The position numbers were made by a program, and so were the translations under genes. Of a DNA stretch of 64,000 bases, positions 2,584-43,253 are shown in pieces. How positions within the stretch are numbered: position 1 is the stretch's first letter; every line of letters begins with the position of its first letter. This stretch comes from Tomocerus qinae (taxonomy: Eukaryota > Arthropoda > Collembola > Entomobryomorpha > Tomoceridae). Under the pieces are notes generated by a model. It was not told the origin of the DNA. It ran no database searches and saw nothing but the letters and a program-made list of their open reading frames with translations. The stretch covers positions 34,348,001-34,412,000 of the forward strand of contig CM034546.1 in the NCBI GenBank assembly GCA_020055645.1. The letters are read 5' to 3'.

Positions 2584-3796
2584 CACTAACAAATCCAAGC
2601 AAATGCTCATTAATACTAACAAATCCAAGCAAATGCTCATTAATACTAACAAATCCAAGCAAATGCTCATTAATACTAACAAATCCAAGCAAATGCTCAT
2701 TAATACTAACAAGTCCAAGCAAATGCTCATTAATACTAACAAATCCAAGCAAATGCTCATTAATACTAACAAATCCAGCAAATGCTCATTAATACTGAAA
2801 AAACAAAGCATATGCTGCTTCAACTTTATACTAACAAATCCAAGCATATAATCGTTAATACTAACAAATCCAAGCATATGCCCCTTTATACTAACAAATC
2901 CAAGCATATGCTCATTAATACTGAAAAAACAAAGCATATGCTGCTTCAACTTTATACTAACAAATCCAAGCATATAATCGTTAATACTAACAAATCCAAG
3001 CATATGCCCCTTTATACTAACAAATCCAAGCATATGCTCCTTTATACTAACAAATCCAAGCATATGCTCCTTTATACTAACATATCCAAGCATATGCTCC
3101 TTTATACTAACAAATCCAAGCATATGCTCATTTATACTAAAAAATCCTAGCATATGCTCATTAATACTAACAAATCCTAGCATATGCTCCTATATACTAA
3201 CAAATTCAACCATATAATCGTTATAAATACTAATAAATCCAAGCATATACTCGCTAATAGTAACAAATTCAAGCAAATGTTCATTAAAACAAACAAATCC
3301 AATTATTTGCTCAATGATGCTCACAAATCCAAGCATTTGCTCATTGAAGCTCACAAATCCAATTATTTGCTCAATGATGCTCACAAATCCAAGCATTTGC
3401 TCATTGAAGCTCACAAATCCAAACATGTGCTCAGTAATGCTAACAAATCCAAGCATTTGCTCAATGATGCGCATAAATCCAAGCATTTGCTCAATAATGC
3501 TCACAAATCCAACCACTTGTTCAATGATTCTCACAAATCCAAGTATTTGCTCAATGATGCTCACAAATCCAAGCGTTTGCCCAATAATGCTCCCAAATCA
3601 AAACATTTGCTCAATGATTTTCACAAATCCAAGCATTTGCTCAATAATGCTCACAAATCCAACCACTTGTTCAATGATTCTCACAAATCCAAGCATTTCC
3701 TCAATGATGCTCACAAATCCAAGCATTTGTTCAATGATGCTCACAAATGCAAGCATTTGCTCAATGATGCTCACAAATTCAAACATATACTGATGA
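2584..3796. repeat. Minisatellite, 30-bp unit, about 40 copies
   Basis: The unit is CAAATCCAAGC plus a variable 19-bp half. Three variant blocks follow each other: AAATGCTCATTAATACTAA units from 2590, ATATGCTCCTTTATACTAA units in the middle, and ATTTGCTCAATGATGCTCA units from about 3300. A segment of about 120 bp (2787-2907) is itself duplicated next door. Because 30 is a multiple of 3, frames stay open for hundreds of bases on both strands; these predicted peptides are repeat artefacts with no supporting gene signals. Single relic units lie outside the array near 2197-2246 and 4566-4612. Confidence 0.95.
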
Positions 3797-12297: not shown

Positions 12298-14928
12298 TCA
12301 AAGTTGATCAATCACAGGCTGAAGTTGCTTCCAGGCTTTATCTACTTGTTTTCTAGTAAATGCAACATCCCAAAGTGATGAGAAGACGACTGTAGCCCGG
12401 TTCACTCGTTCATGGTTACTCACTTGAGAATTCAAACGGCTTTCGGCACTTTCTTGGGATAGATTATCACGGGCCTGGACCCTTCTGATAGCCTAAAATA
12501 CACAGACAGAATATTTAAACAGCTTCAGATTAATAGAATTACAATTTTGTTGACCCCAACCCAATCAGAACCCAATATAGAAAATATTTAAGGAAATGGG
12601 TCTTGGGATGGGATTCCTGTTGATTGCGACAGATTTGATTTTAATGACCAAAAGTCAACATTTCCAAATCCCTAGATGGTTTTTGGTCATGTCAGTAGTT
12701 TAGTAAATGTATTTTACCATCTACATATCTTGCTGTTTACAAAAGATTAAAAAATATTTTCACTCAAAGGGTTTTCTTAAAGCAATAGAAAATTTAATTG
12801 AGAGAATTGAAAGATCTAATAACTTACTTTAACACACATTGGATTATAATACAATAATAAATTGTATTATATTAAAATGTTTATATATAATAAACAATTA
12901 TAACCAAATTGAGAAGCCTTTTTAACTACTTTACTTGAAATAATGATATAATAAAATAATGCCACCCTGAACCGAATATGCAATGGTACAAGGAGATTTC
13001 ATGTTATATTTTGAATTGTATTTATGGTAATTATGTAAAATGTGTAAACACCAAACCTCTTCCTTGGGAATTACGACGACCCAGATATCATGACACAAAA
13101 AGTCCCAACCAGCTTCGAGTAAAACAGCTGCTTCCATTACAATAACTTTCTTGCCTTCTACAACCAACTCGGCAATTCGTTTTTCTGCTAGAGCTTTTAT
13201 TTCTGGCCAAACTATGCTAGTCAGCTTTTTCATTTCAGATTCGTTGTTGAACACTTTGAGGCCTAACTTTCTGCGGTCTATTTCACCACCCCCCTCCAGT
13301 AAAATATCTTCTCCGAATGTATCTATCAATTTCTTAAAGCAAGGTGTTCCAGAACGATAAGCCTCATGAGCCATGTGGTCACAATTGATGCTTGCGATTC
13401 CGAGAGTTTCCATGTAGGAACATATGGTGGACTTTCCACTGGCGATACCTCCCGTTAGTCCAATAATGTAGGGTACCGATGGAGGCTTTATCTACAACGA
13501 AATAAAATTAGTTTATTGACACAAAATATAACAACCCACAACTCAAATAAAATTAGTACGTTTTCAGAACCTATAAGAAAGTAACACACAAAAATATTAA
13601 TTAAAAAAATATTTAGTTCAACTAAATTGGCTCTAAATATTGCAAACTTTACTTTTTAATAACTAAAACCAAAAATGGGTTTAATCTTAAGATTTTTAGG
13701 TTAAGCCTACTTAATATTACAAAACAATATCGGTATATAAAGCGTTGAAACTTCGAAACCTTTGATTTTGAAATTTCACTACTTTATTTCTTTAATTGTA
13801 TACAATTTTGGGATTTACTTTGAACTCTTAGGTTTTATATCATGTAAATTTGAATGAGTATTGATTTGAGATTAATAATAAATAGAAAATGTAAAATATT
13901 TTACCATAGCTTGTAATCTTTCTCCAAGAATACGAATTCTTTGAGAACTGGAACTGATTTTATCTTCTTCGTGCTCACTTTGCTTCATTGGTTCGGAAAA
14001 TAATTCGATGTGGTGAATATCTAAAGGTGGAAAATCCTTTTGTTTGCGTAATTCGTTGATTTTAGCAGCACCTTTTACAGTTTCTGTACTAACGACAATG
14101 AAATCGATATCCTTCTCAGAAACTGTGGGTCCATAAGGTTCTTCGAGAGGAACTATTCTATGCGTTAAATTAGGTGCAACATCATCTAGGAAGTTTTTGA
14201 CTCGTTCAATTCTCTTCTCACAAGGTTCTATCAACTCGAACAGTAGTTTACCTGTAATAAAGCATTAATTATTAGATTGAAAACAATTTTAGAGAATAAT
14301 TAAATGACTATCAAATATTTAGCTTACTTTTGATCATTTCGTCGTCTGTAACCCCCACAATTAATTCTTTGTTGCACCTCAAAACTGCTTCAGTGAGTAA
14401 GATTTTATGAGCATTGTGCATTCGATCAAATGTTCCTCCAAGTGCTACAACATCATAAGTCTTGATAGCTTTATCAGTGTCAGCAGGATCCTCGACTTCA
14501 ATTTTATCTTCAACAACAGCTGATCCTTCTAAAAACTGCACTTCAAAGTTATCACTTTTTCTTAAGAATAACTCATTAACAAGTGCTTCGACTCTTGCTT
14601 TGGTTACACCACTTTTAAATTCAGACTCGACCATAACAAGGTCAAGAGGTTGCTTTACAAACTCAAGAATACCATTTGGCTTTTTTAATAACAGTCGAAC
14701 ATCCAAATGGGGACATTGTGATGTCCCTTGACTGTATAAGGCTGATGAAATTCGGCTGACTTTGTACCTAGTCTTATAATCTAATGTAGATACTTCGCCA
14801 TTCAATTTCCACGGGTAAACATATAGAACCCCACTAAGTCGCTTTTCTGCGGCAGCTAGATTTAATCTGGTTCTTGAAGTTAGGTTAATTGTTGACGACG
14901 TCAGCAGAAGTAACCCTGTTAAGGCCAT
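12298..14928 (-). CDS. COASY: Bifunctional coenzyme A synthase (PPAT/DPCK), four coding exons
   Basis: It catalyses the last two steps of CoA synthesis: adenylyl transfer to 4'-phosphopantetheine, then 3' phosphorylation of dephospho-CoA. Exons are 14328-14928, 13905-14251, 13057-13491 and 12298-12492; all junctions keep the frame and the product is 525 residues (the human enzyme is 564). The PPAT nucleotidyltransferase motif GGTFDRMHNAHK begins at about residue 164, followed by LIVGVTDDEMIKSK. The dephospho-CoA kinase P-loop GGIASGKST is at residues 330-338, followed by INCDHMAHEAY. The last exon encodes AIRRVQARDNLSQESAESRL and a C-terminal tail like the animal enzyme's. The N-terminus is hydrophobic (MALTGLLLLTSS), compatible with the mitochondrial association known for animal COASY. 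The intron 3 donor, GTTTGG, is weak but gives the conserved protein join. Neighbouring genes are unrelated. Confidence 0.93.
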
Positions 14929-23200: not shown

Positions 23201-23272
23201 TCAACATTTTGAGTGAAAGTATCAAGGGAGAGCAATTTATACCACAACAGTTGTGCAATTGATAAGGTCAAA

Positions 23273-24563
23273 ATGATTTTAATTATTTTTCTAGTTTTCT
23301 TAAATTTTACCTGGCCATCTTTAGTTTACTGTAAGGTCGATTCGCATTATATCAATGAGGAAAAAGAGGAAAATTTATTACAAATACTGCTCAATGAAAG
23401 TGTGTACAATAAAAACATTCGTCCTTCTGGAGAATTCCCTGGAGAGGCTACAATTGTGGAGGTTTCTCTGAGAATCTTAAATTTTGACAACATAAATGAC
23501 GAAGATCAGAGTTACGGAGTGGAATTAAGTTTAACCCAAGTTTGGCATGACGGTCGTCTAAATTATATTAACGATGCTGCCATAGAATCTCCTTCACTCA
23601 CGAGTGGATATTTAGAATTGAAAGAAATATCTAGAATCTGGACACCAGGAATTTACTTTGCCAACGAGAAAGCAGACTGTAGGAATAAGAACGACAAAAT
23701 CAACAACATTCTACGAATATTTCCAAATGGAACGGTTTTCATGAATACCAAATCTTCAGCGTCTTTCAAGTGTCCAATGGATTTTCGAAAATTTCCTTTT
23801 GATTCACAAAAATGTAAAATTAGGCTGTGCTCTAACTTATTATCCCGAGAAAAACTTAAACTGCATTGGAGTCTTGGGAATGCACCAATAAATATATCCA
23901 TGCCTACCATTATTGGTGGCAATGGCCAATTTTCGTTGACGAATTACTCCACGAGCTCTGAAGACGTTTTGTCCGACACGGGAATTTACAGGTGTTTAAT
24001 TGCTACATTTCATTTTCAACGACAAATCCGCTACTACGTGTTGCATATCTTCCTCCCTTGCTTCATGATGACCTGGATATCTTGTCTTGCATTTTGGATC
24101 TCTGAGGATCTTGCAGATGCTCGCATTTCATTGGGAATCACAACGATATTGACTATGTCCACTCAGATCTACGGAATGACCCAATCTGTTCCTCAGGTGT
24201 CTTACATAACTGCCTTGCACAGTTTCACTGGAACGTGCCTTACATACAGCTTTCTCGCACTCCTTGAATCTGTGTTTGTAATCTCTGTTCATAAAAAAAC
24301 TAAACAAGAAACTTTAGAAATCGGAAATACTCCCTCTGATATTTCTCAAGAGCAAAAAGAAGACCCTTTTTTTAAATAACCCTAAAAACAGTCAGACAAT
24401 GAAACCCACATGTTTTTACTTACAAATATCACGACTATTCTCTACAGCCAAGAAAATTGACTTTTATGCAAAGCTTCTATTCCCCATTTCTTTTCTACTG
24501 TATCTAACTTTTTATTTCATTGCCTACGTTTTTAAACAATTTTCAGAAAGTGATCACAAATGA
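23273..24563 (+). CDS. GluCl-like Cys-loop anion channel subunit, intronless, frameshifted before M4
   Basis: I start at 23273 because the in-frame ATG there begins a clear signal peptide (MILIIFLVFLNFTW). The extracellular domain has WTPGIYFANEK, FPNGTV, and a canonical Cys loop with 13 residues between cysteines (C167 to C181, KCPMDFRKFPFDSQKC). M1 is near residues 253-275, M2 contains ARISLGITTILTMSTQ, and M3 contains CLTYSFLALLESVFVIS. The main frame stops at 24379, before M4. In the +1 frame, from about 24430 to a stop at 24561-24563, lies a typical M4 (KKIDFYAKLLFPISF). Losing one T from the run of seven at 24367-24373 would join the two, so this is either a sequencing error or a recent disabling mutation. 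Ligand identity (glutamate, histamine, pH) is not certain. The usual Pro of the PAR signature before M2 is Asp here. Confidence 0.85.
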
Positions 24564-30535: not shown

Positions 30536-31671
30536 CAGTATGTATTGAAAGTGGGTATACATAGGAGTTTATGGGTATACATAGAATTTTAGTATCCATA
30601 GCACTTTCATTGTTAGTATACAGTACACAAGTTCAATTTGCAATTTTTACCAGCCAGATTTCCCTTTTATTATTTCATTGTTCGTCCCTCTATCCTTCTT
30701 TTCGCAATAAATAATGCGTTGTTTCAATCTGAAGAACTCAATATGGATAAACTGTCAATAAGTGAGCGAAATGAAATTGTAAAGATGCGGACAACAATGT
30801 CGTTACGAGAGGTGGCTGAGAAATTCACTATCCGGTAAAGACAGTTAGCATCAGAACAGCTCGGTTTGATAGGACTGGTTCCGTCAAAAACTTACCAAAA
30901 GTAGGAAGACAATTTTTTGATTTCTGAATTGGATGCTAAGGGAGTGGATCCTTACAACATTTGGTTTCAGCAAGACGGTGGTCCCCCACATTATGCCATA
31001 CAATTTAGGAATTGGTTAGATGAAACTTGATCATAATGATCATGATCAAGAGACCATGATGATCATGATCAAGAGACCATGATGATCATGATCAAGAGAC
31101 CATGATGATCATGATCAAGAGACCATGATGATCATGATCAAGAGACCATGATGATCATGATCAAGAGACCATGATGATCATGATCAAGAGACCATGATGA
31201 TCATGATCAAGAGACCATGATTATCATGATCAAGGGACCATGATGATCATGATCAAGTGACCATGATGATCATGATCAAGTGACCATGATGATCATGATC
31301 AAGTGACCATGATGATCATGATCAAGTGATCATGATCATTATGATCTGTGGTAACCGCTACTGTTCTGATGCTGTCTTTCCAGGATAGTGAATTCCTCAG
31401 CCACCTTTCGTAACGACATTGTTGTCCACATCTTTACAATTTCATTTCGCTCACTTATTGACAGTTTATCCATATTGAGTTCTTCAGATTGAAACAACGC
31501 ATTGTTTATTGAGAAAAGAAGGAAAGAGAGACGAACAATGAATTAATAATTGGCTGGTAAAAATTGCAAATTGAACTTGTGTACTGTATACTAACAATGA
31601 AAGTGCTATGGATACTAAAATTCTATGTATACCCATAAACTCCTATGTATACCCACTTTCAATACATACTG
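30536..31671. mobile_element. Mariner-type relic rearranged into a large palindrome
   Basis: TA-flanked ends CAGTATGTATTGAAAGTGGG and its complement delimit 1136 bp. The arms 30536-30860 and 31360-31671 are about 310-bp near-perfect inverted copies, and each contains the start of a transposase: LSISERNEIVKMRTTMSL, a helix-turn-helix N-terminus. Between them, near 30870-31030, come FDRTGSVKNLPKVGR-like sequence (frame disturbed) and DPYNIWFQQDGGPPHYA, the block around the second catalytic Asp of mariner transposases. The remaining catalytic region is missing. The centre is filled by the 23-bp minisatellite. It cannot encode a working enzyme. Confidence 0.82.
31027..31345. repeat. Minisatellite, 23-bp unit, centre of the mariner palindrome
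   Basis: About 14 head-to-tail copies of a 23-bp unit: ATGATCATGATCAAGAGACC plus ATG. The last five use CAAGTGACC or CAAGGGACC instead. Each unit contains the self-complementary GATCATGATC, so the whole array can fold on itself. Confidence 0.93.
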
Positions 31672-34925: not shown

Positions 34926-34980
34926 TTGTATGAATAAAATTATACCACCATCGTAAATCGTAAAGATACACTGTAGTAAA

Positions 34981-35220
34981 TGACCCTTTCAGAGAAACTC
35001 ATTTGGGCGGAAAATTGTAGGAATTTACATTGAAAGAGTACGGATTTTTTAGAAAATTGCCTGTAACTTTTGATCTAAAAGAGTAAAGTGGCATATGTCA
35101 GCGAGTGGAAGTTCGCAAATTTAATCAGCTTTGCAAATCTGTAAAGCACAAATTTCTACAATGTCTACAACTCAAATTATGGTCATTTTTCCAAAGCACC
35201 TTTTTCGATATGGGGGGAGA
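34981..35220 (+). repeat. Left arm of a long inverted repeat flanking the Helitron
   Basis: This stretch starts TGACCCTTTCAGAGAAACTC and is the reverse complement of 42731-42965, about 95% alike by eye (shared AAAGTGGCATATGTCAGC, ATTTAATCAGCTTTGCAAAT). The two arms lie about 7.5 kb apart on either side of the Helitron gene. No flanking target duplication is apparent, so they may be two independent insertions of one repeat family. Confidence 0.75.
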
Positions 35221-35410
35221 ATATAGCCATTAGATTTAATAAGATGCGAAGCGACACTTATGAATTATTCAAATACGAGAAACGCAGCCCGTCCTACGGA
35301 CGGGGAAATAACTGTTGGCTAGCAATCAAGACTTTATTAAAAACATAAAAAGTGACTTTGTTAGTTTGGTATATAAATAAATTGTAAAATTGTTACATTT
35401 GTACAATAAT

Positions 35411-35516
35411 CTACGTTTTTTAAAGGCTTACCCGCCACCACCCGATCACTTTTTGGATCTCAACAAAAAACTAATATAAAAACGATAAGTAATCGAAAGC
35501 CTTTAAAAAACGTAGA
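35411..35516. repeat. 19-bp inverted repeat downstream of the Helitron gene
   Basis: CTACGTTTTTTAAAGGCTT and AAGCCTTTAAAAAACGTAG form a perfect stem around a loop of about 68 bases. It lies about 70 bp past the Helitron stop codon. It may belong to the Helitron 3' region, but I see no convincing CTRR terminus on that strand. Confidence 0.6.
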
Positions 35517-35588
35517 TGCAGAACACATGTTCCATCAAAATCTTCTCAAAAGAGAAAACCTTGTAAATGAAAAACTTCATTTTACTGT

Positions 35589-38500
35589 TCAAAAAATTTC
35601 TTTGAACACTACATTTCGTGTAAAAACTCTGTCGCTTCCACTGAGAAGCTTTCCCTGACATTCAGTGTCTTTTACCTGAACTGTGATATTTTTAAGGGTA
35701 GTAACCCTTGAAAAGGCAACATAGAGTTGTCCGTGTGAAAAAACTGGTCGAGATAAGTAGAGACCTACTTTCTCTAAAGTCTGTCCTTGAGACTTGTTGA
35801 TGGTCATTGCAAATGCCACCCTAATAGGAAATTGTTTTCTATTTAAATGAAAAGGTAAATGAGCATCTGATGGAGTCAATTTCATCCTTGGAATGAACAC
35901 AGTTTCACCTTTCGACTTTCCATCGCTCAAAACTTTAGCGAAAATGACGTTGTCTTTCAACTCGGTCACTATGAGTTTTGTGCCATTGCACAAATCTCGT
36001 TTGCTACAAAGATTGCGTAACAACATTATAATTGCACCAACTTTAAGGTGCAGTTTATGTACAGGCAAGCCTGATACATTTAAAGTATTTAAATACTCTT
36101 CTGGAAAATGCATTTTTTCATCATCATCATCAGTGTTTAATGAGTCTACACTTAGGTAGACTCTATCGTCTTGAGGCCTATCCTCGTCGACTTTCAAACG
36201 ACTAAGTATTTCGTCGTTGAATTGAAAAGTATCCTCATTTGTTGGACATAGTATTGCTCGTTTAGCAAATAGTTCGGCATCAGCAGGAGTGAAAGACTCC
36301 CCAAATACTTCGTCAATAAGTGAACCTTTTGAAACACAGTCAGGGGGTATTTCAACAATATCTTCCCCGAGACCATCACAGTTGGTGAGTGTCCCATCAC
36401 CTAATTTAATTAGCCAATCAGCATATGCTTTATCATTGGCTGCTCTCATGTTCTCAGTCAAACGGATCTGAGTGACATTATCCCACATTGGGCACCATTT
36501 AATGGTGTCTTCAATAATCTGGACTCTATTTCCTCCAGATACTATAGGCAAACATTGTCTAAAATCACCTCCAAAAAGGATAGCTTTGTTTGCAAATTGA
36601 CATTTTTTGTCATTATCACCTTTAGGGGTGATATCTCGTAAAAGTCGGTCTACTATGATCAAAGCTTTCCCAGGTGTCATTCCAGCTTCATCCCAAATGA
36701 TGAGATCGGCATTCCTAACTTCACTCGCCGCATTTGAATGTGGGGTGATGGATGACAAAGATTCCTTAGTAAAAGGAACAGGAAACTTGAATTGGGAGTG
36801 ATAGGTTCTACCACCTTCAAGAAGTGTGGCAGCAATTCCAGTTGGAGCAACAGCTAACACTCCCATTTCACGGCCTCTCAAAACTGAAAGGAGGGTTTTA
36901 TAGAGGAAAGTTTTTCCACTTCCTCCTGGACCATCAACAAAAAAGAATCTTTTTCTTTCATTTGGATTTTCGACGGCATTCATAACCTTTATAAAAGCGT
37001 CCATCTGTCCAGCATTGAGCTGAGACATAAAAAGCTCACCTTGTTCTCTCTGAAATTCAGAATCATATTCAGATTCCATTTCATTATCATCTTCAATGGG
37101 TCTTAAATCTGGTAAATTCAGACTTTTCCATTCCGATCCATGCAATCGGAGAGTATCAAAAATATCATGCAGTGCACGATTTTCAGGGTCAGATTTATTC
37201 TGATGCACAAAATCTTCTATAAGGGCATCTTTGAAAGCTTCAAAAAGAACCCCTGGATCTTTAGGTGCACCGAAAACACATATCCATGCAAAAAGCAGTC
37301 TCAATTGCTTTGGAAATTGCGAAAGAGACGCTTCAGTGAGACATTTTTCCCACTCTGAGTCATCATCGAGAAGATTTCTCCTGATCGCATTTTCTTTAAA
37401 AGAAGTACAAATATTTCCTTGAGGATCTTTGTAAAGATCATCCCAGCTACATGCTCCTCTTATATGAAGAAGAAGCATTCTTAAATAGAATCTTTCACCG
37501 TCCTTAGACAATTTGACTCCATACATTCTACTGATGGCCTTATTGCCACCAGTTTTCCTTTTACTCCAATAATTTGCACCACCTTTAACTAATTTAAAGG
37601 TATAGTGCTTTGGAATTTCAGTATACAAATACTGACGTGATTCAATACTTTGGGCGTTTAACTTAAACCAAGCAGTTAGTGAGGTTTCTTTATAGATAGC
37701 ATTGTCAAATGCATGTTTGGCTTGTCCAGGTTTAAAATAAACCATTTGACTGTCAGGCAAATGAACTGCCAACCTAATGATATGATGCGACTGTGCATGC
37801 ATCTTATAGCTGTTAAGTCTCCACATAGCTTCATGAGCACTCACATAGCGTGAATCCAAATAATTTTTCACCTCATTATGAGTAACCATTTCAGGTTGTT
37901 TATCCTTCTCATGTATTTGAAAATATGCTGCATCATGACCTTTGTAAACATATTTGTACAGGTACTTGACGCTTTGCACAGAACCGCAAACTTCCACATT
38001 AATGTGGCAGTTATACTTTTTTAGCAACCATGGGTTGTAAGGAACAACCCAAGAATTGTCTATTTCCTTATTCAGGTTAATGCCAACTCTGTGTGTTGGA
38101 CCTGAACGTCTTTGATACTTAGGGTATCCGTTGACATTTTCATGAGTTTCTTCCTGAAACTCCTTCGGAAATTGTTTTAAACAATTTATTTTCAAAGAAT
38201 CCATGCATACACTATTAGGATTATTTTTCCCACATGGCCCATGGATCATATGTTTAGTAACAATGTCATAAAGATCAGGATCATGATTTTTGTCGGGTAT
38301 TTCAGCCCAAACTAAAGTGTCAATAGTCTCGGGAGTGCGAGGTTTGTCTTCACTTTGAAGCATAAGCAGCATGTGCATATGTGGCAATCCACGTTTTTGA
38401 AATTCAATGACATAGACATATCCATTGACTTTTCCAAAGACATTGTTATTATTAATGTCATGAAGTAGTTCTTTAACTTTTAAGTTAAAAACTTTTGAAA

Positions 38501-40268
38501 CCAAATCAGGTCTGTTTTCAGCACGACAACCATTCAAATTGTCTGTAATCTCTTTCCATTTCGGATTACAGGTCATTGTAATAAAGAGATCTGGCTTTCC
38601 ATACTTTCTTACAATGGCCATTGCATCCTGGAAACGTTGGAGTTGACTTCTCGGTCCTCCATCAAAAGTAGAAGGCAAAATACACATTTTGCCTATTTCA
38701 AGATCTGTGTCTTCTCCAAGATGCAATTGGTCCATTAGACCACTGTAGCTTTCAGATCGTAACTGAGCTTGATTTTTATCTATCCAGTTTAATCTATTGG
38801 CTTCAGTTTTACAGTATGCATCAACAACAAATTGTTGTGTCAATTTTCCAGCTGAAATGAATGGATTGAATTCCTTACGTACAGCTAATAGGAAACTGTA
38901 GTACATCAACTGGGTGATTCTTGCATCTTCCCCTCTTTCGTTTTTGCAAAACAAATTTGTATGCCATCCATCCTCTCCATACGGAAAGAGTAGTGGGTAT
39001 ACCATCGGATCACATTTCCTATCAAGGATGGAGATCTGCTGAGTTGCATTTGTGCCTATATTGTAGACTCTAATGTCTCTATTAAATGGAGGTTCACCAT
39101 CTGTGTTTTCAAACACAACGGCAACCTCATTTGCTGTTGGAGAGTTATAGCGCCTCCGATCACTTTGAGGATCTTGACAGAATGAAAGAGCCAAATCAGG
39201 AATCTTTCCATATTGTTTTTCATGATCAATTTCGACTTGACGCATCATTTTGTATGATTTTGCAAGTTGGTTGTTATCGTCCATCCATTTCGACAAATTT
39301 GTCATAGTGGCTTCCATGCATTCTTTATTGGCTGGATTTTCTAATCTGGCATTAGAAGCCAATTCAGCAGTGTCCAGCATATACAGCTGTGCATATTTAG
39401 GTGCTGTTCCTTCCACAGGTCGTGCACCTTTAGAAGTAATATGGTATACAATACCTTGCACCTTAAAACAGTAAGTTCCACTATTCCCAGGCATATTTTG
39501 TCCTGGTTTGGATTTAAGAAATTCACCTCCCATTGAAGCGAATGCTAAAGAACTATTAAAGTTCCTAATATGCTCGATAAAGTTTTTCTTCATCTTTTTG
39601 TTAGGATCATTTTCTCCATCAATTACCAAAAGATTTTTAATAACGTCTGGGCATCCAGGACGTTCTAAATCAACTTTGCCTTTATGACAACAGTATGTAA
39701 GTTTCTGTTTTTCAACTGAAACATTTTTGGGTAATTCACTCTTAAAGTTTAAAGAATGGCATTGTTGACATTCAAATGTCATTGGACCCAAGTCACATTC
39801 GTTAACATTGACGTCATCAATTTTTGATACTCGTGCAATATTGAGTGTGTCGTTTCGAATTCTCAAAACTCTTTGCTGTCTAGCAGAATTGATTCTGCAA
39901 AGTCTCTGGTTTCTTTCTTCGAGAGTTTCATCAGCTTTTTGCTGGGCAATCCTAGCACGTGAGTGTGCTCGTTGCTCTTCAGTTTGGCTTGCTCTATGTT
40001 GAGCCACCTGCAGTGTATTTACTACACGTGCTTGAGATCTTTCCTCTTCAGTTTGACTTGCTCTGCTTTGAGCCATTCTAAGAGCATTTTGTGCATTGAC
40101 TTGAGCTCTTTGCTCTTCAGTCTGATTTGCTCGTTTTTCAGCGTACTTTGCTCGCCGTTGAGCGTTTTTTAAAGCACGCTGCTCTTCGGAAAGGCGGGCG
40201 CTTTTTTCACGCTGTCTTTTTGGTCCGCCATCATTTGTGTCAGCAGGACGCTTTTTTGCGCGTGGCAT
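35589..40268 (-). CDS. Helitron Rep-helicase (RepHel), apparently intact
   Basis: A single uninterrupted frame of 1559 residues encoding a rolling-circle transposase. Residues about 25-130 are four 23-residue repeats (TEEQRAQ-type), probably a basic coiled helix. A Cys-rich motif (FECQQC, YCCHKG) lies near 165-200. The Helitron N-like domain follows (YYSFLLAVRKEFNPFISAGK). The HUH metal motif GLPHMHMLLML is at H630/H632, and the paired-tyrosine motif YLYKYVYKG is at 769-777. The C-terminal Pif1-type helicase has Walker A GPGGSGKT near 1113-1120, Walker B LIIWDEAGM, FGGDFRQCLP, and the late motif MTINKSQGQTL with HGQLYVAFSR. All catalytic motifs are present and no stop or frameshift is seen, so recent activity is plausible. 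The element's outer ends are not resolved. Confidence 0.95.
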   Translation of the reverse strand: MPRAKKRPADTNDGGPKRQREKSARLSEEQRALKNAQRRAKYAEKRANQTEEQRAQVNAQNALRMAQSRASQTEEERSQARVVNTLQVAQHRASQTEEQRAHSRARIAQQKADETLEERNQRLCRINSARQQRVLRIRNDTLNIARVSKIDDVNVNECDLGPMTFECQQCHSLNFKSELPKNVSVEKQKLTYCCHKGKVDLERPGCPDVIKNLLVIDGENDPNKKMKKNFIEHIRNFNSSLAFASMGGEFLKSKPGQNMPGNSGTYCFKVQGIVYHITSKGARPVEGTAPKYAQLYMLDTAELASNARLENPANKECMEATMTNLSKWMDDNNQLAKSYKMMRQVEIDHEKQYGKIPDLALSFCQDPQSDRRRYNSPTANEVAVVFENTDGEPPFNRDIRVYNIGTNATQQISILDRKCDPMVYPLLFPYGEDGWHTNLFCKNERGEDARITQLMYYSFLLAVRKEFNPFISAGKLTQQFVVDAYCKTEANRLNWIDKNQAQLRSESYSGLMDQLHLGEDTDLEIGKMCILPSTFDGGPRSQLQRFQDAMAIVRKYGKPDLFITMTCNPKWKEITDNLNGCRAENRPDLVSKVFNLKVKELLHDINNNNVFGKVNGYVYVIEFQKRGLPHMHMLLMLQSEDKPRTPETIDTLVWAEIPDKNHDPDLYDIVTKHMIHGPCGKNNPNSVCMDSLKINCLKQFPKEFQEETHENVNGYPKYQRRSGPTHRVGINLNKEIDNSWVVPYNPWLLKKYNCHINVEVCGSVQSVKYLYKYVYKGHDAAYFQIHEKDKQPEMVTHNEVKNYLDSRYVSAHEAMWRLNSYKMHAQSHHIIRLAVHLPDSQMVYFKPGQAKHAFDNAIYKETSLTAWFKLNAQSIESRQYLYTEIPKHYTFKLVKGGANYWSKRKTGGNKAISRMYGVKLSKDGERFYLRMLLLHIRGACSWDDLYKDPQGNICTSFKENAIRRNLLDDDSEWEKCLTEASLSQFPKQLRLLFAWICVFGAPKDPGVLFEAFKDALIEDFVHQNKSDPENRALHDIFDTLRLHGSEWKSLNLPDLRPIEDDNEMESEYDSEFQREQGELFMSQLNAGQMDAFIKVMNAVENPNERKRFFFVDGPGGSGKTFLYKTLLSVLRGREMGVLAVAPTGIAATLLEGGRTYHSQFKFPVPFTKESLSSITPHSNAASEVRNADLIIWDEAGMTPGKALIIVDRLLRDITPKGDNDKKCQFANKAILFGGDFRQCLPIVSGGNRVQIIEDTIKWCPMWDNVTQIRLTENMRAANDKAYADWLIKLGDGTLTNCDGLGEDIVEIPPDCVSKGSLIDEVFGESFTPADAELFAKRAILCPTNEDTFQFNDEILSRLKVDEDRPQDDRVYLSVDSLNTDDDDEKMHFPEEYLNTLNVSGLPVHKLHLKVGAIIMLLRNLCSKRDLCNGTKLIVTELKDNVIFAKVLSDGKSKGETVFIPRMKLTPSDAHLPFHLNRKQFPIRVAFAMTINKSQGQTLEKVGLYLSRPVFSHGQLYVAFSRVTTLKNITVQVKDTECQGKLLSGSDRVFTRNVVFKEIF

Positions 40269-40281
40269 GTTTTTAATGAAT

Positions 40282-40520
40282 ACTGACCGAATTCAAAAGT
40301 GTAGTAATATTGACCGGAGTCAAAAGTGTACTATTATTGACCGAAGTCAAATGTGTACTATTATTGACCGAAGTCAAATGTGTACTATTATTGACCGGAG
40401 TCAAATGTGTACTATTATTGACCGGAGTCAAAAGTGTACTACTATTGACCGAAGTCAAATGTGTACTATTATTGACCGGAGTCAAAAATTTACTACTACT
40501 GACCGGAGTCAAAGGTTTGC
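40282..40520. promoter_or_regulatory. Nine 27-bp iterons upstream of the Helitron gene
   Basis: Head-to-tail units of ATTGACCGAAGTCAAATGTG plus TACTATT start 14 bp upstream of the Helitron start codon. Nearly every unit carries the dyad TTGAC-N4-GTCAA (spacer CGAA or CGGA). The array could be a binding site for a dimeric protein, an origin-like iteron set, or an unstable minisatellite; only its position favours regulation. Confidence 0.8.
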
Positions 40521-40765
40521 TTTTAAAAAAGCAGTTGAGGGTGAGCTTGTCCAATTTTATTAATCACCGTCTTTCAACTTTTGCCAACCTAAATCACAAA
40601 ATCATATCAAAATGGATTAATATTGTCTCCCAAAAATTAACATTTTATTGCGACGGCTGCCTTAGTGGCAGCAGGGGTTGGTTGAAATAGCAGCCGGTGT
40701 AAAAATGTTATGAGGCATTTTAACTGCAATGATTGGTGAATGCAGTTCATAGTTGAAGTTAATCC

Positions 40766-41366
40766 AATATAATTTTAATTACATCATAGAGTTGGTACAG
40801 TGTATTATTTTGAGATGATGCTAAAAGTGTTAGTCCGTATTTTCCTATCACATGCCTGTAGTTCAAAGTTCAATGTTGAAATAAATATTTCCCCTGGGGA
40901 GGATTTATGAAAATCATTGGCCAATTTTTAAAATGCATCCACCAATCAGAAGCAATTTTCCAATATAATTTTAATTACATCATAGAGTTGGTACAGTGTA
41001 TTATTTTGCGATGATGCTAAAAGTTTTAGTCCGTATTTTCCTATCATATCACATGTCTGTAGTTCAAAGTTCAGTGTTGAAATAAATATTTCCCCTGGGG
41101 AGGATTTATGAAAATCATTGGCCAATTTTAAAAATGCATCCACCAATCAGAAGCAATTTTCCAATATAATTTTAATTACATCATAGAGTTGGTACGGTGT
41201 ATTATTTTGCGATGATGCTGAAAGTTTTAGTCCGTATTTTCCTATCATATCACATGTCTGTAGTTCAAAGTTCAGTGTTGAAATAAATATTTCCCCTTGG
41301 GAGGATTTATGAAAATCATTGGTCAATTTTAAAAATGCATCCACCAATCAGAAGCAATTTTCACTG
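40766..41366 (+). repeat. Tandem array, three 201-bp units
   Basis: Units begin near 40766, 40966 and 41167 and share TTACATCATAGAGTTGGTAC, AAATATTTCCCCTGGGG and CATCCACCAATCAGAAGC. The last two are nearly identical; the first is more diverged. The 66-codon frames found twice on the minus strand are by-products of the repeat. Single relatives lie at 34733-34925 and 45020-45159. Confidence 0.9.
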
Positions 41367-41410
41367 CGATTATTATTTGGTAATTCGGTTTCGCGAATTG
41401 ATAATTCTAA

Positions 41411-42131
41411 CAGTAAAACCTAGGTTATGAGTGTCACTTCCTTTTCACTTCACGCGCAAAGGAACATTCATAAAGCTAGATTTTGAGTTTCACTTCCTTT
41501 TCACTTCACGCGCAAAGGAACATTCATAAAGCTAGGTTTTGAGTGTCACTATCCTTTTCACTTCACGCGGAAAAAGGACCATTCAGTTACTTATTCTGCC
41601 TAAAATTCCAAATCCCCTCACCTGGGGCAACGGCAATGTTTTATTTATGAATGTTCCTTTGCGCGTGAAGTGAAAAGGAAGTGACACTCAAAACCTAGCT
41701 TAAAGCTAGGTTTTGAGTTTCACTTCCTTTTCACTTCACGCACAAAGGAATATTAATAAAGCTAGGTTTTGAGTTTCACTTCCTTTTCACTTCACGCGCA
41801 AAGGAACATTGACAAATAAAACATTGCCGTTACCCCAGGTGAGGGGATTTGGAATTTTAGGCGAATAAGTAACTGCATGGTCCTTTTTCCGTGTGAAGTT
41901 AAAGGGAAACTCAAAACCTAGCTTCAATACGCCCCAGGTGAGGGGATTTGGAATTTTAGGCAGAATAAGTAACTGCATGGTCCTTTTTCCGCGTGAAGTG
42001 AAAGGGAAACTGAAAACCTAGCTTAAATAATCCCCAGGTGAGGGGATTTGTAATTTTAGGCAGAAAAAGTAACTGAATGGTCATTTTTCCGCGTGAAGTG
42101 AAAGGGAAAGTGACACTCAAAACCTAGCTTA
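41411..42131. repeat. Cluster of direct and inverted 60-100 bp repeats
   Basis: Blocks CACTTCCTTTTCACTTCACG, GCGCAAAGGAACATT, AAAACCTAGCTT and CCCCAGGTGAGGGGATTTG occur many times in both orientations. The overall shape is two or three collapsed foldback copies. No coding capacity. Confidence 0.8.
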
Positions 42132-42167
42132 TCTTTGCCCCCCCCCACTTACTTCAGTAGTTTGGTC

Positions 42168-42372
42168 CAGATGACAAATGACAGGCACAGATGACAAATG
42201 ACAGGCACAGATGACTTGACGGGCAGAAAAGACAACAGCCAGAGATGACCAAAGACGGACAGAGATGACCAAAGACGGACAGAGATGACCAAAGACGGAC
42301 AGAGATGAGTCCAAAGATGACCAAAGACGGACAGAGATGACCAAAGATGACCAAAGACGGACAGAAATGACA
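42168..42372. repeat. Minisatellite, 20-bp unit
   Basis: AGAGATGACCAAAGACGGAC is repeated about five times with interruptions, preceded by two copies of the related AGATGACAAATGACAGGCAC. The long frames across it arise from the repeat. Confidence 0.85.
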
Positions 42373-42730
42373 ACAGCCACTGACGACAGCAACCACCATG
42401 CAGCCGTAGCACGATGAAACGTAGATTTTGGCAGATCTTTGTATCTGCCGCAAGAATCAAAAGTTGGTGCAAGGATGGCTTGCACGAACGAAAGAAATGA
42501 GATGAGAAGGCAAGCAGTGCTTGTCTCATCTCAGTCCAGCCAGCCAGCAGCCGCGAGTGAGTAGGGTAGTAGAAGGCAAGCAGGCATAAGCACTACACTG
42601 CTTATGCCTGACTCCGCCAAGGGTAAACCGTCTCACATTGTTTTGTACAATGTCTTGCGACATCCCAGGTACATTTTTGGAGGACGAACACTTACATGCT
42701 CTCTTACTTTTTATAGAGAGATGACTGTTT

Positions 42731-42965
42731 TCCCCCCATGTCGAAAAAGGTGCTTTGGAAAAATGACCATAATTTGAGTTGTAGACATTGTAGAAAGTGC
42801 TTTACAGATTTGCAAAGCTGATTAAATTTGCGAACTTCCACTGGCTGACATATGCCACTTTACTCTTTTAGATCAAAAGTTACAGTCAGTTTTCTAAAAA
42901 ATCCGTACTCTTTCAATGTAAATTCCTACAATTTTCCGCCCAAACGAGTTTCTCTGAAAGGGTCA
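42731..42965 (-). repeat. Right arm of the long inverted repeat flanking the Helitron
   Basis: Reverse complement of 34981-35220, ending CTCTGAAAGGGTCA. An 83-bp-spaced hairpin-rich stretch (AGGCATAAGCA, TGCTTATGCCT near 42582-42610) lies just outside the inner edge. Confidence 0.75.
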
Positions 42966-43253
42966 ATTAAAACAGGCTATTGGATTAACTTTAAGGAGGC
43001 CGTCTTTACAGACTTTCAGATTGAACTCCTTCAAGTTCGGAAATCTCTACAAATGGCGCATGGGGTCAATGAGTTTGGAGGACGGGATGATCGTAAAAAT
43101 ATAGCTCCTGCCCCGGAGGAAAGTGTGGACTGTTGTGGCCTCGCTCTGCTCTCCACCACTCCTCCGTGCGATATCGCGATATGAATACAACAACACAATA
43201 TCTAGCTACATTTGATTTGTTTGTTAGACAAAATGGCACAGTGAAGCCATTTC

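Follow-up and report, generated by a model that had tools for sequence, protein, structure and literature searches.

An iteron array recurs upstream of the RepHel gene in Helitrons of Tomocerus qinae and is a candidate cis-regulatory element

Plasmid rep iterons of theta and rolling-circle replicons are tandem 20-odd-bp sites directly upstream of the replication-initiator gene. They are alike within a replicon, differ between replicons, sometimes carry dyads, and autoregulate the rep genes. For Helitrons, rolling-circle transposons of eukaryotes, we know of no established account of how the transposase is controlled. The nearest published features, taken from partial texts of the papers, are a pair of 247-bp tandem repeats that an insect Helitron contig carries at its 5′ end (PMC6544945) and the central repeats of HINE elements (PMC7492417). 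No published description of iteron arrays before RepHel was found in the titles, abstract openings, and passages covered of a largely non-subscription literature. Searches for Helitron with STPR, or with "23 amino acid" repeats, found no papers. Helitron with iteron returned one paper, on endogenous geminiviruses, and STPR with helicase returned papers whose titles and opening abstract lines point to other subjects. Here, an iteron array in front of the RepHel gene of a Tomocerus qinae Helitron is described and compared with copies across the genome.

The window is the 64,000-nucleotide stretch of T. qinae DNA that was analyzed (GCA_020055645.1, contig CM034546.1, positions 34,348,001–34,412,000). 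Its Helitron, designated W, spans 35275..42721 on the minus strand (7,447 bp), with a 5′ end of TCTCTCTATAAAAAG after A at 42721 and a 3′ end of GCTGCGTTTCTCGT at 35275. TCTCTCTATAAAAAG starts 9 of 16 copies examined (window included), in all nine after a host A (TCTCTC after A), and the other seven have an altered 5′ start. The homology of copy A to W ends at 42721. All 20 copies fetched at the 3′ end read GACGGG-CTGCGTTTCTCGT up to CTCGT and diverge beyond, with ATAR found 5–7 nt past the CTCGT end. A 3′ hairpin, CCCGTCC-GTA-GGACGGG (CCCGTCCGTAGGACGGG; 35288..35304, minus strand), lies 13 nt before the 3′ end and is exact in 18/20 copies, with one change each in copy B and L072. A 5′ terminal hairpin, CTCTCT ... 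AGAGAG, was read in the sequence at 42699..42721 (minus strand). W is a Helitron whose 3′ end is non-canonical. A canonical CTRR end with an A/T target, CTAA at ~35233, was ruled out, as 20 copies end at CTCGT (35275 in the window). A 251-bp inverted repeat (34971–35221 and 42728–42975, 95%) was considered as terminal inverted repeats. It lies beyond the element ends, and the surroundings of copies A and B yielded no inverted repeat >80 bp, so it was taken as target DNA.

W encodes a RepHel transposase of 1559 aa without internal stop at 35589..40268 (minus strand). Pfam matches include a Rep nuclease domain (Helitron_like_N, 208 bits) at 38364..38903 and a PIF1 helicase domain (184 bits) at 36381..37022, both on the minus strand, and the ORF also matches Pif1_2B. 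No endonuclease domain fused to RepHel is among the Pfam matches at E 0.001. Further tandem blocks of 201, 100, 56, and 20 bp lie within W.

Nine 27-bp iterons occupy 40283..40513 on the minus strand and end 14 bp ahead of the RepHel ATG. On the sense strand, the unit is TTGAC-TNCG-GTCAA followed by a 13-bp spacer. TRF calls a 27-bp array at 40284–40513 with 8.5 copies and 91% matches. The nine units comprise seven with a perfect TTGAC-N4-GTCAA (40310, 40337, 40364, 40391, 40418, 40445, and 40472), one at 40499 with one mismatch in the dyad, and the gene-nearest unit at 40283, CTGAC-CGAA-TTCAA, with two. The original prediction of nine 27-bp iterons 14 bp upstream of an intact Helitron gene is thus borne out by the TRF call, the dyad positions, and the open 1559-aa ORF. 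Its wording that each unit contains TTGAC-N4-GTCAA is correct for seven of the nine and fails for the two units with mismatches. The array sits ~2.2 kb in from the 5′ terminus (42721) and is therefore not a terminal sequence.

The pattern TTGAC-N4-GTCAA-N13-TTGAC has 40 exact matches genome-wide (334 Mb, 115 contigs; 19 and 21 by strand), and the reversed control has none. Thirty-nine matches fall into five stretches, which belong to four RepHel copies because an insert divides one array; the remaining match is a stray on C3. Among shuffled 27-bp units, 17% have a stem of at least 5 bp with a loop of 3–8, which makes the dyad weak evidence when taken alone; the position of the array is strong evidence. 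In the window array, arms vary at 3/90 letters versus 14/117 in the spacer (column-shuffle p = 0.10). Pooled over the four W-family copies (32 units), 10/320 arm letters are changed versus 56/382 in the spacer (column-shuffle p = 0.02), with change rates of 3.1% in arms, 11.7% in the loop, and 14.7% in the spacer. In the W family, changes avoid the dyad and are not scattered evenly over dyad and spacer, the pattern named in advance as contrary to the prediction.

The array is kept by all four W-family RepHel copies (W, A, B, and C). Copy A matches W at 97.5% over 2,980 bp, and a deletion fuses its array to the ORF interior. Copy B matches at 96.5% over 4,879 bp and has the array. Copy C was found via its array and has a broken RepHel that is 87–95% identical in pieces. 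The comparison of genomic copies proposed with the prediction therefore found the array in all three other W-family RepHel copies that reach the region. C7:1.09 (L072) is 98% identical to the 3′ part of W; with no 27-bp array there and no protein match listed, it is probably a fragment. The first-look searches scored the best 30 of 290 and best 39 of 253 candidates. Each of the two ends of W matches many other places, with 40 matches per end from the best 40 of 73 and best 40 of 68 candidates scored. Pairing by eye among these best 40 of 68 and of 73 gave 19 end pairs that delimit elements of 3–5 kb, none of them at a 27-bp array. The 5′ ends of the non-autonomous elements are 85–99% identical to the W type, which suggests that these elements were moved by a W-type RepHel. 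The 27-bp dyad is absent in all six non-autonomous elements with W-type ends that were read fully, so the array is dispensable for elements bearing such ends. NA3, NA4, and NA6 retain W sequence to 40701, ~190 bp before the array, and then array and ORF are gone together. The array thus travels with the gene rather than with the transposon ends.

RepHel copies were collected across the genome by protein search, with 55 matches to a first query and 73 to a second. Upstream DNA was fetched for copies A, B, and C and 28 further places (31 in all). W itself was left out of the count, as were C and C1_24.18, which were found only via their arrays. Also dropped were C1_72.91 (rearranged, upstream part gone), C1_33.97 and C1_139.95 (start not reached), and C1_50.55 (decayed, with an unlike array ~0.6 kb before the expected start). 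The 5′ side of several matches, including C1_128.94, two at C1_49.57, C1_42.84, C1_38.93, C1_18.17, and C1_73.13, lies outside the census. Of the 25 RepHel copies that the protein searches identified and whose 5′ side could be read, 24 have a tandem array upstream. The exception, C2_26.31, has a 22-bp unit ~0.44 kb upstream, repeated no more than 2.5 times. Where TRF array and ATG are both readable (19 copies), the gap between them is 7–187 bp. The start codon is unreadable in L048, L054, and L062 and deleted in A, and the array precedes the remaining coding region.

Six array types occur, of 22, 23, 24, 27, 28, and 35–39 bp. The 27-bp type comprises census copies A and B, the 24-bp type four census copies, and the 35–39-bp type 14 copies, including C1_51.27 and C1_51.28, which are apparent mutual duplicates. 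The 22-bp type is found in C7_1.24, the 23/18-bp type with CTCCA repeats in C2_0.76, and the 28-bp type in C5_19.30 and C1_82.49. In a tree of 22 Rep fragments, which excludes A, B, C, C1_51.27, and C1_79.74, each array type forms a separate clade or a single row, and both CTCCA types form one clade. C7_1.24 has a long branch in this tree. A search with the 24-bp-unit pattern gave 37 hits genome-wide in five arrays, all at RepHel starts, of which the fifth is decayed and was recognized by eye. For a random stranded point in the window, the chance that a comparable array ends ≤190 bp upstream is 0.009. With six array types at the same position, chance is no reasonable account, with the proviso that copies within one type are not independent and that some types have a core in common. 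No relatives were found in viral_contigs and genome_contigs. The array is genuine, and arrays are general among the Helitrons that can be checked in this one genome.

Arrays are homogeneous inside an element, and units turn over between lineages. Two dyads are seen in the 35–39-bp units: TGACC-loop-GGTC, mostly with a loop of 6–7 nt, and TGCC-loop-GGCA, mostly with one of 6 nt. In C1_61.18, the first dyad is TGAACC/GGTTCA, with both arms differing from relatives, and 5/12 of its units have GGCTCA instead. Arms in the 35–39-bp group change at 7.7 and 4.9% versus 11.1 and 8.2% in the loops and 9.1% in the linker. In the 24-bp unit, the dyad is imperfect (TGATCC-TTCG-GGACA). A stem no better than in shuffled units is found in the 23- and 28-bp units, and no dyad was seen by eye in the 22-bp unit. 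The original emphasis on a perfect dyad was therefore too strong, as other lineages show imperfect, double, or no dyads. TTGAC is present in the 27-bp, 22-bp, and 3/5 tested 35–39-bp consensus units, versus 4–10% of shuffled units, and is absent from the 24-bp unit and the other 2/5 tested. CTCCA is found in units of C2_0.76 and C5_19.30, and the C2_0.76 iterons are without TTGAC. Across 182 units of 11 arrays in the 35–39-bp group, paired arms have 1,435 Watson-Crick cells versus 1,434.7 in shuffles, and mismatch cells are G-U in 67 and A-C in 49. Arms without covariation within units are as expected of duplex half-sites.

The N-terminal region of the window RepHel encodes four 23-aa STPR-like repeats (39915..40196, minus strand), with the motif at residues 27, 50, 73, and 96 and a 23-residue periodicity. 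The protein matches Pfam STPRs (PF21107) at 17.6 bits (E 0.0054), under the 27-bit cut-off. Five relatives match at 115, 97, 53, 30, and 24.6 bits, the last just below this cut-off, with E-values of 2.3e-33 (a 36-bp relative), 8.1e-28, 6.5e-14, 8.3e-7, and 3.5e-5. No Pfam STPR match was found in the one 24-bp protein and two CTCCA proteins scanned. The 24-bp lineage has 23-aa repeats outside Pfam recognition, C2_0.76 has 17-residue repeats in place of STPR, and neither repeat class is recognizable in C5_19.30. In the accessible part of the report on the silkworm transcription factor FMBP-1, four such repeats constitute a DNA-binding domain and become rigid on DNA (PMC4821344). Fragments of the bat Helitron Helraiser without the N-terminal domain gave no DNA cleavage, and its authors suggest, in the portion available, that this domain binds DNA (PMC4778049). 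The pairing of 17-aa repeats with CTCCA, versus STPR with TTGAC, is the most telling hint that the transposase may read the array. This swap is one event on the tree, and co-evolution thus rests on n = 1.

A promoter-proximal regulatory reading is best supported. It rests on the observed position of the array and on the return of that position in six array types. Further observations are that array and gene segregate together rather than array and ends, that units are homogeneous within elements and turn over between lineages, and that several of the proteins have STPR. The array would be a set of nearly identical binding sites for protein close to the promoter. STPR repeats at the N terminus of the transposase itself would occupy the iterons, and the iteron-bound RepHel would adjust transcription of its own gene. 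We infer this binding, with repression or control as the presumed outcome, and reading by the element's own STPR is the most likely mechanism. That the array is a cis-regulatory element of RepHel, most likely bound by its own STPR repeats in autoregulation, is judged about as likely as not. Against reading by its own STPR stand the window repeats, which score under the Pfam cut-off, the 24-bp lineage, whose repeats Pfam does not recognize, and C2_26.31, which has STPR and no clear array. The asymmetric TNCG loop is not predicted by a symmetric dimer site. Between the promoter, operator, or autoregulatory role and the docking role that the original prediction had offered, the first is favored by arrays in 24/25 copies, loss with the gene, and STPR in relatives, and the second is disfavored.

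The array might instead be read as promoter or enhancer by host transcription factors rather than by RepHel. Such a role would equally suit the ATG-proximal position, the recurrence, and the joint loss of array and gene, and the TGACC-type half-sites presumably resemble nuclear-receptor half-sites. However, units differ between Helitron lineages of one host at a constant position, a pattern more readily explained by a reader that varies along with the element, and the STPR repeats of the protein would go unexplained; reading by host factors is judged unlikely. Another reading places function in RNA or single-stranded DNA, with units in the 5′ UTR forming stems with a UNCG tetraloop that control RNA stability or translation. 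On the gene strand, 30/32 W-family loops are T-N-C-G (N = C, T, or A), with C-G closure in 29/30, and we take these loops to be akin to the UNCG tetraloops of RNA. C(TTCG)G is found in 42/50 units of the 24-bp lineage, and all 20 arrays tested (first 220 bases each) fold more stably than shuffles. Yet the UNCG loop is dominant in two sister lineages only, and arms do not covary in the 182 units of the 35–39-bp group. Compared with the antisense strand, the sense strand gives the better fold in W, C, D, and the four 24-bp arrays but the poorer one in 10/11 arrays of the 35–39-bp group, and in A and B its fold is slightly poorer. Hairpin function is considered quite improbable; the duplex is taken as the functional form, and the UNCG fit is left unexplained.

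Neutral minisatellites would arise if rolling-circle elements breed tandem repeats and the survivors lie in front of the gene. W does hold other tandem blocks (201, 100, 56, and 20 bp). Partial texts describe central repeats in Helentron-related elements of oysters and flies (PMC7492417, PMC4067079) and the 247-bp pair in the insect contig (PMC6544945). Against neutrality, six array types occupy the same place in 24/25 copies, arms change more slowly than spacer in the 32 W-family units, and the array is lost jointly with the gene, which leaves this account very unlikely. The array could also be a docking site or origin where RepHel starts rolling-circle transposition, as plasmid and virus iterons often lie next to rep at the origin. 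For Helraiser, the accessible text (PMC4778049) indicates that DNA binding apparently requires the N-terminal domain and places the determinants of precise cleavage within the terminal 40 bp. The window array is ~2.2 kb inside the 5′ end. None of the 19 paired elements (among the best 40 of 68 and of 73) is at a 27-bp array, and elements with 85–99% identical 5′ ends have multiplied without one. If a W-type RepHel moves them, the six fully read non-autonomous elements, all without array, argue indirectly against its need in cis for replication or transfer. The docking role is thus disfavored and highly improbable, the least likely of these accounts.

Regulation of RepHel through its own array may extend to a plasmid-like loop. 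Lineage-specific iterons at the RepHel promoter would be read by the N-terminal STPR, and transposase level, and thereby copy number, would be self-limited. A change of reader, from STPR to 17-aa repeats, would bring with it a change of iterons, from TTGAC to CTCCA. We put this forward tentatively, as possible rather than probable. If true, it would link eukaryotic rolling-circle transposons to plasmid copy-number control. With a defined array beside RepHel and, in the encoded protein, repeats of a known DNA-binding class, a simple binding and reporter test becomes feasible. The array may also serve as a marker that separates autonomous from non-autonomous Helitrons.

Like plasmid iterons, the window array consists of direct repeats upstream of an initiator gene. 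Unlike them, it belongs to a eukaryotic transposon, lies off the element end, and is absent from elements with the same ends, and its binding is putative. W shares with canonical Helitron1 a RepHel with Rep nuclease and PIF1, a 5′-TC after A, and a hairpin 13 nt short of the 3′ end. W differs in ending with CTCGT instead of CTRR, in having ATAR 5–7 bp past the end rather than T, and in its upstream iteron array and STPR-like repeats. A 5′ hairpin and internal tandem repeats are shared with Helitron2/Helentron and HINE/DINE-1 elements. Unlike Helentron, W has no endonuclease domain among its Pfam matches (E 0.001). HINE repeats are central and in non-coding elements, whereas the array here is at the gene and absent from the six non-coding elements read. 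As in the STPR domain (PF21107) of FMBP-1, described in the accessible text of PMC4821344, the window protein has four tandem 23-residue repeats; unlike those of FMBP-1, they score under the Pfam cut-off and are part of a transposase.

The Helitron ends in CTCGT at its 3′ terminus (window 35275), as do the 19 other copies compared. An ATAA or ATAG motif (ATAR) begins 5–7 nt beyond this end in all 20 copies; the distance is 7 nt at locus L081 and 5 nt at locus L082 of the same genome. Immediately beyond both ends of the element lies a 251-bp inverted repeat with arms that are 95% identical (window 34971–35221 and 42728–42975). This palindromic repeat seems to have been the target, with the Helitron inserted in its middle.

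Three 201-bp repeats are found in the 5′ half of the Helitron (window 40763–41362). Repeats of this type are also present in non-autonomous copies, including NA3, which has W-type ends and lacks the iteron array; its units, roughly ten in number, measure 165 or 201 bp. The W-family array of copy C (G000:C1:54401334-54403782; loci L041 and L042) is interrupted between units, where about 2.3 kb of other sequence has been inserted. Outside the Helitron, the window contains long minisatellites of 30 bp × 40 (2585–3788) and 23 bp × 14 (31032–31346), a neurotransmitter-gated ion channel ORF identified by Pfam match (23213–24376), which points to animal DNA, and a CoaE-like ORF (12931–13413).

The 20 copies suggest an insertion rule of A^N5-7-ATAR. 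Canonical Helitrons have an AT target, from which such a rule would differ.
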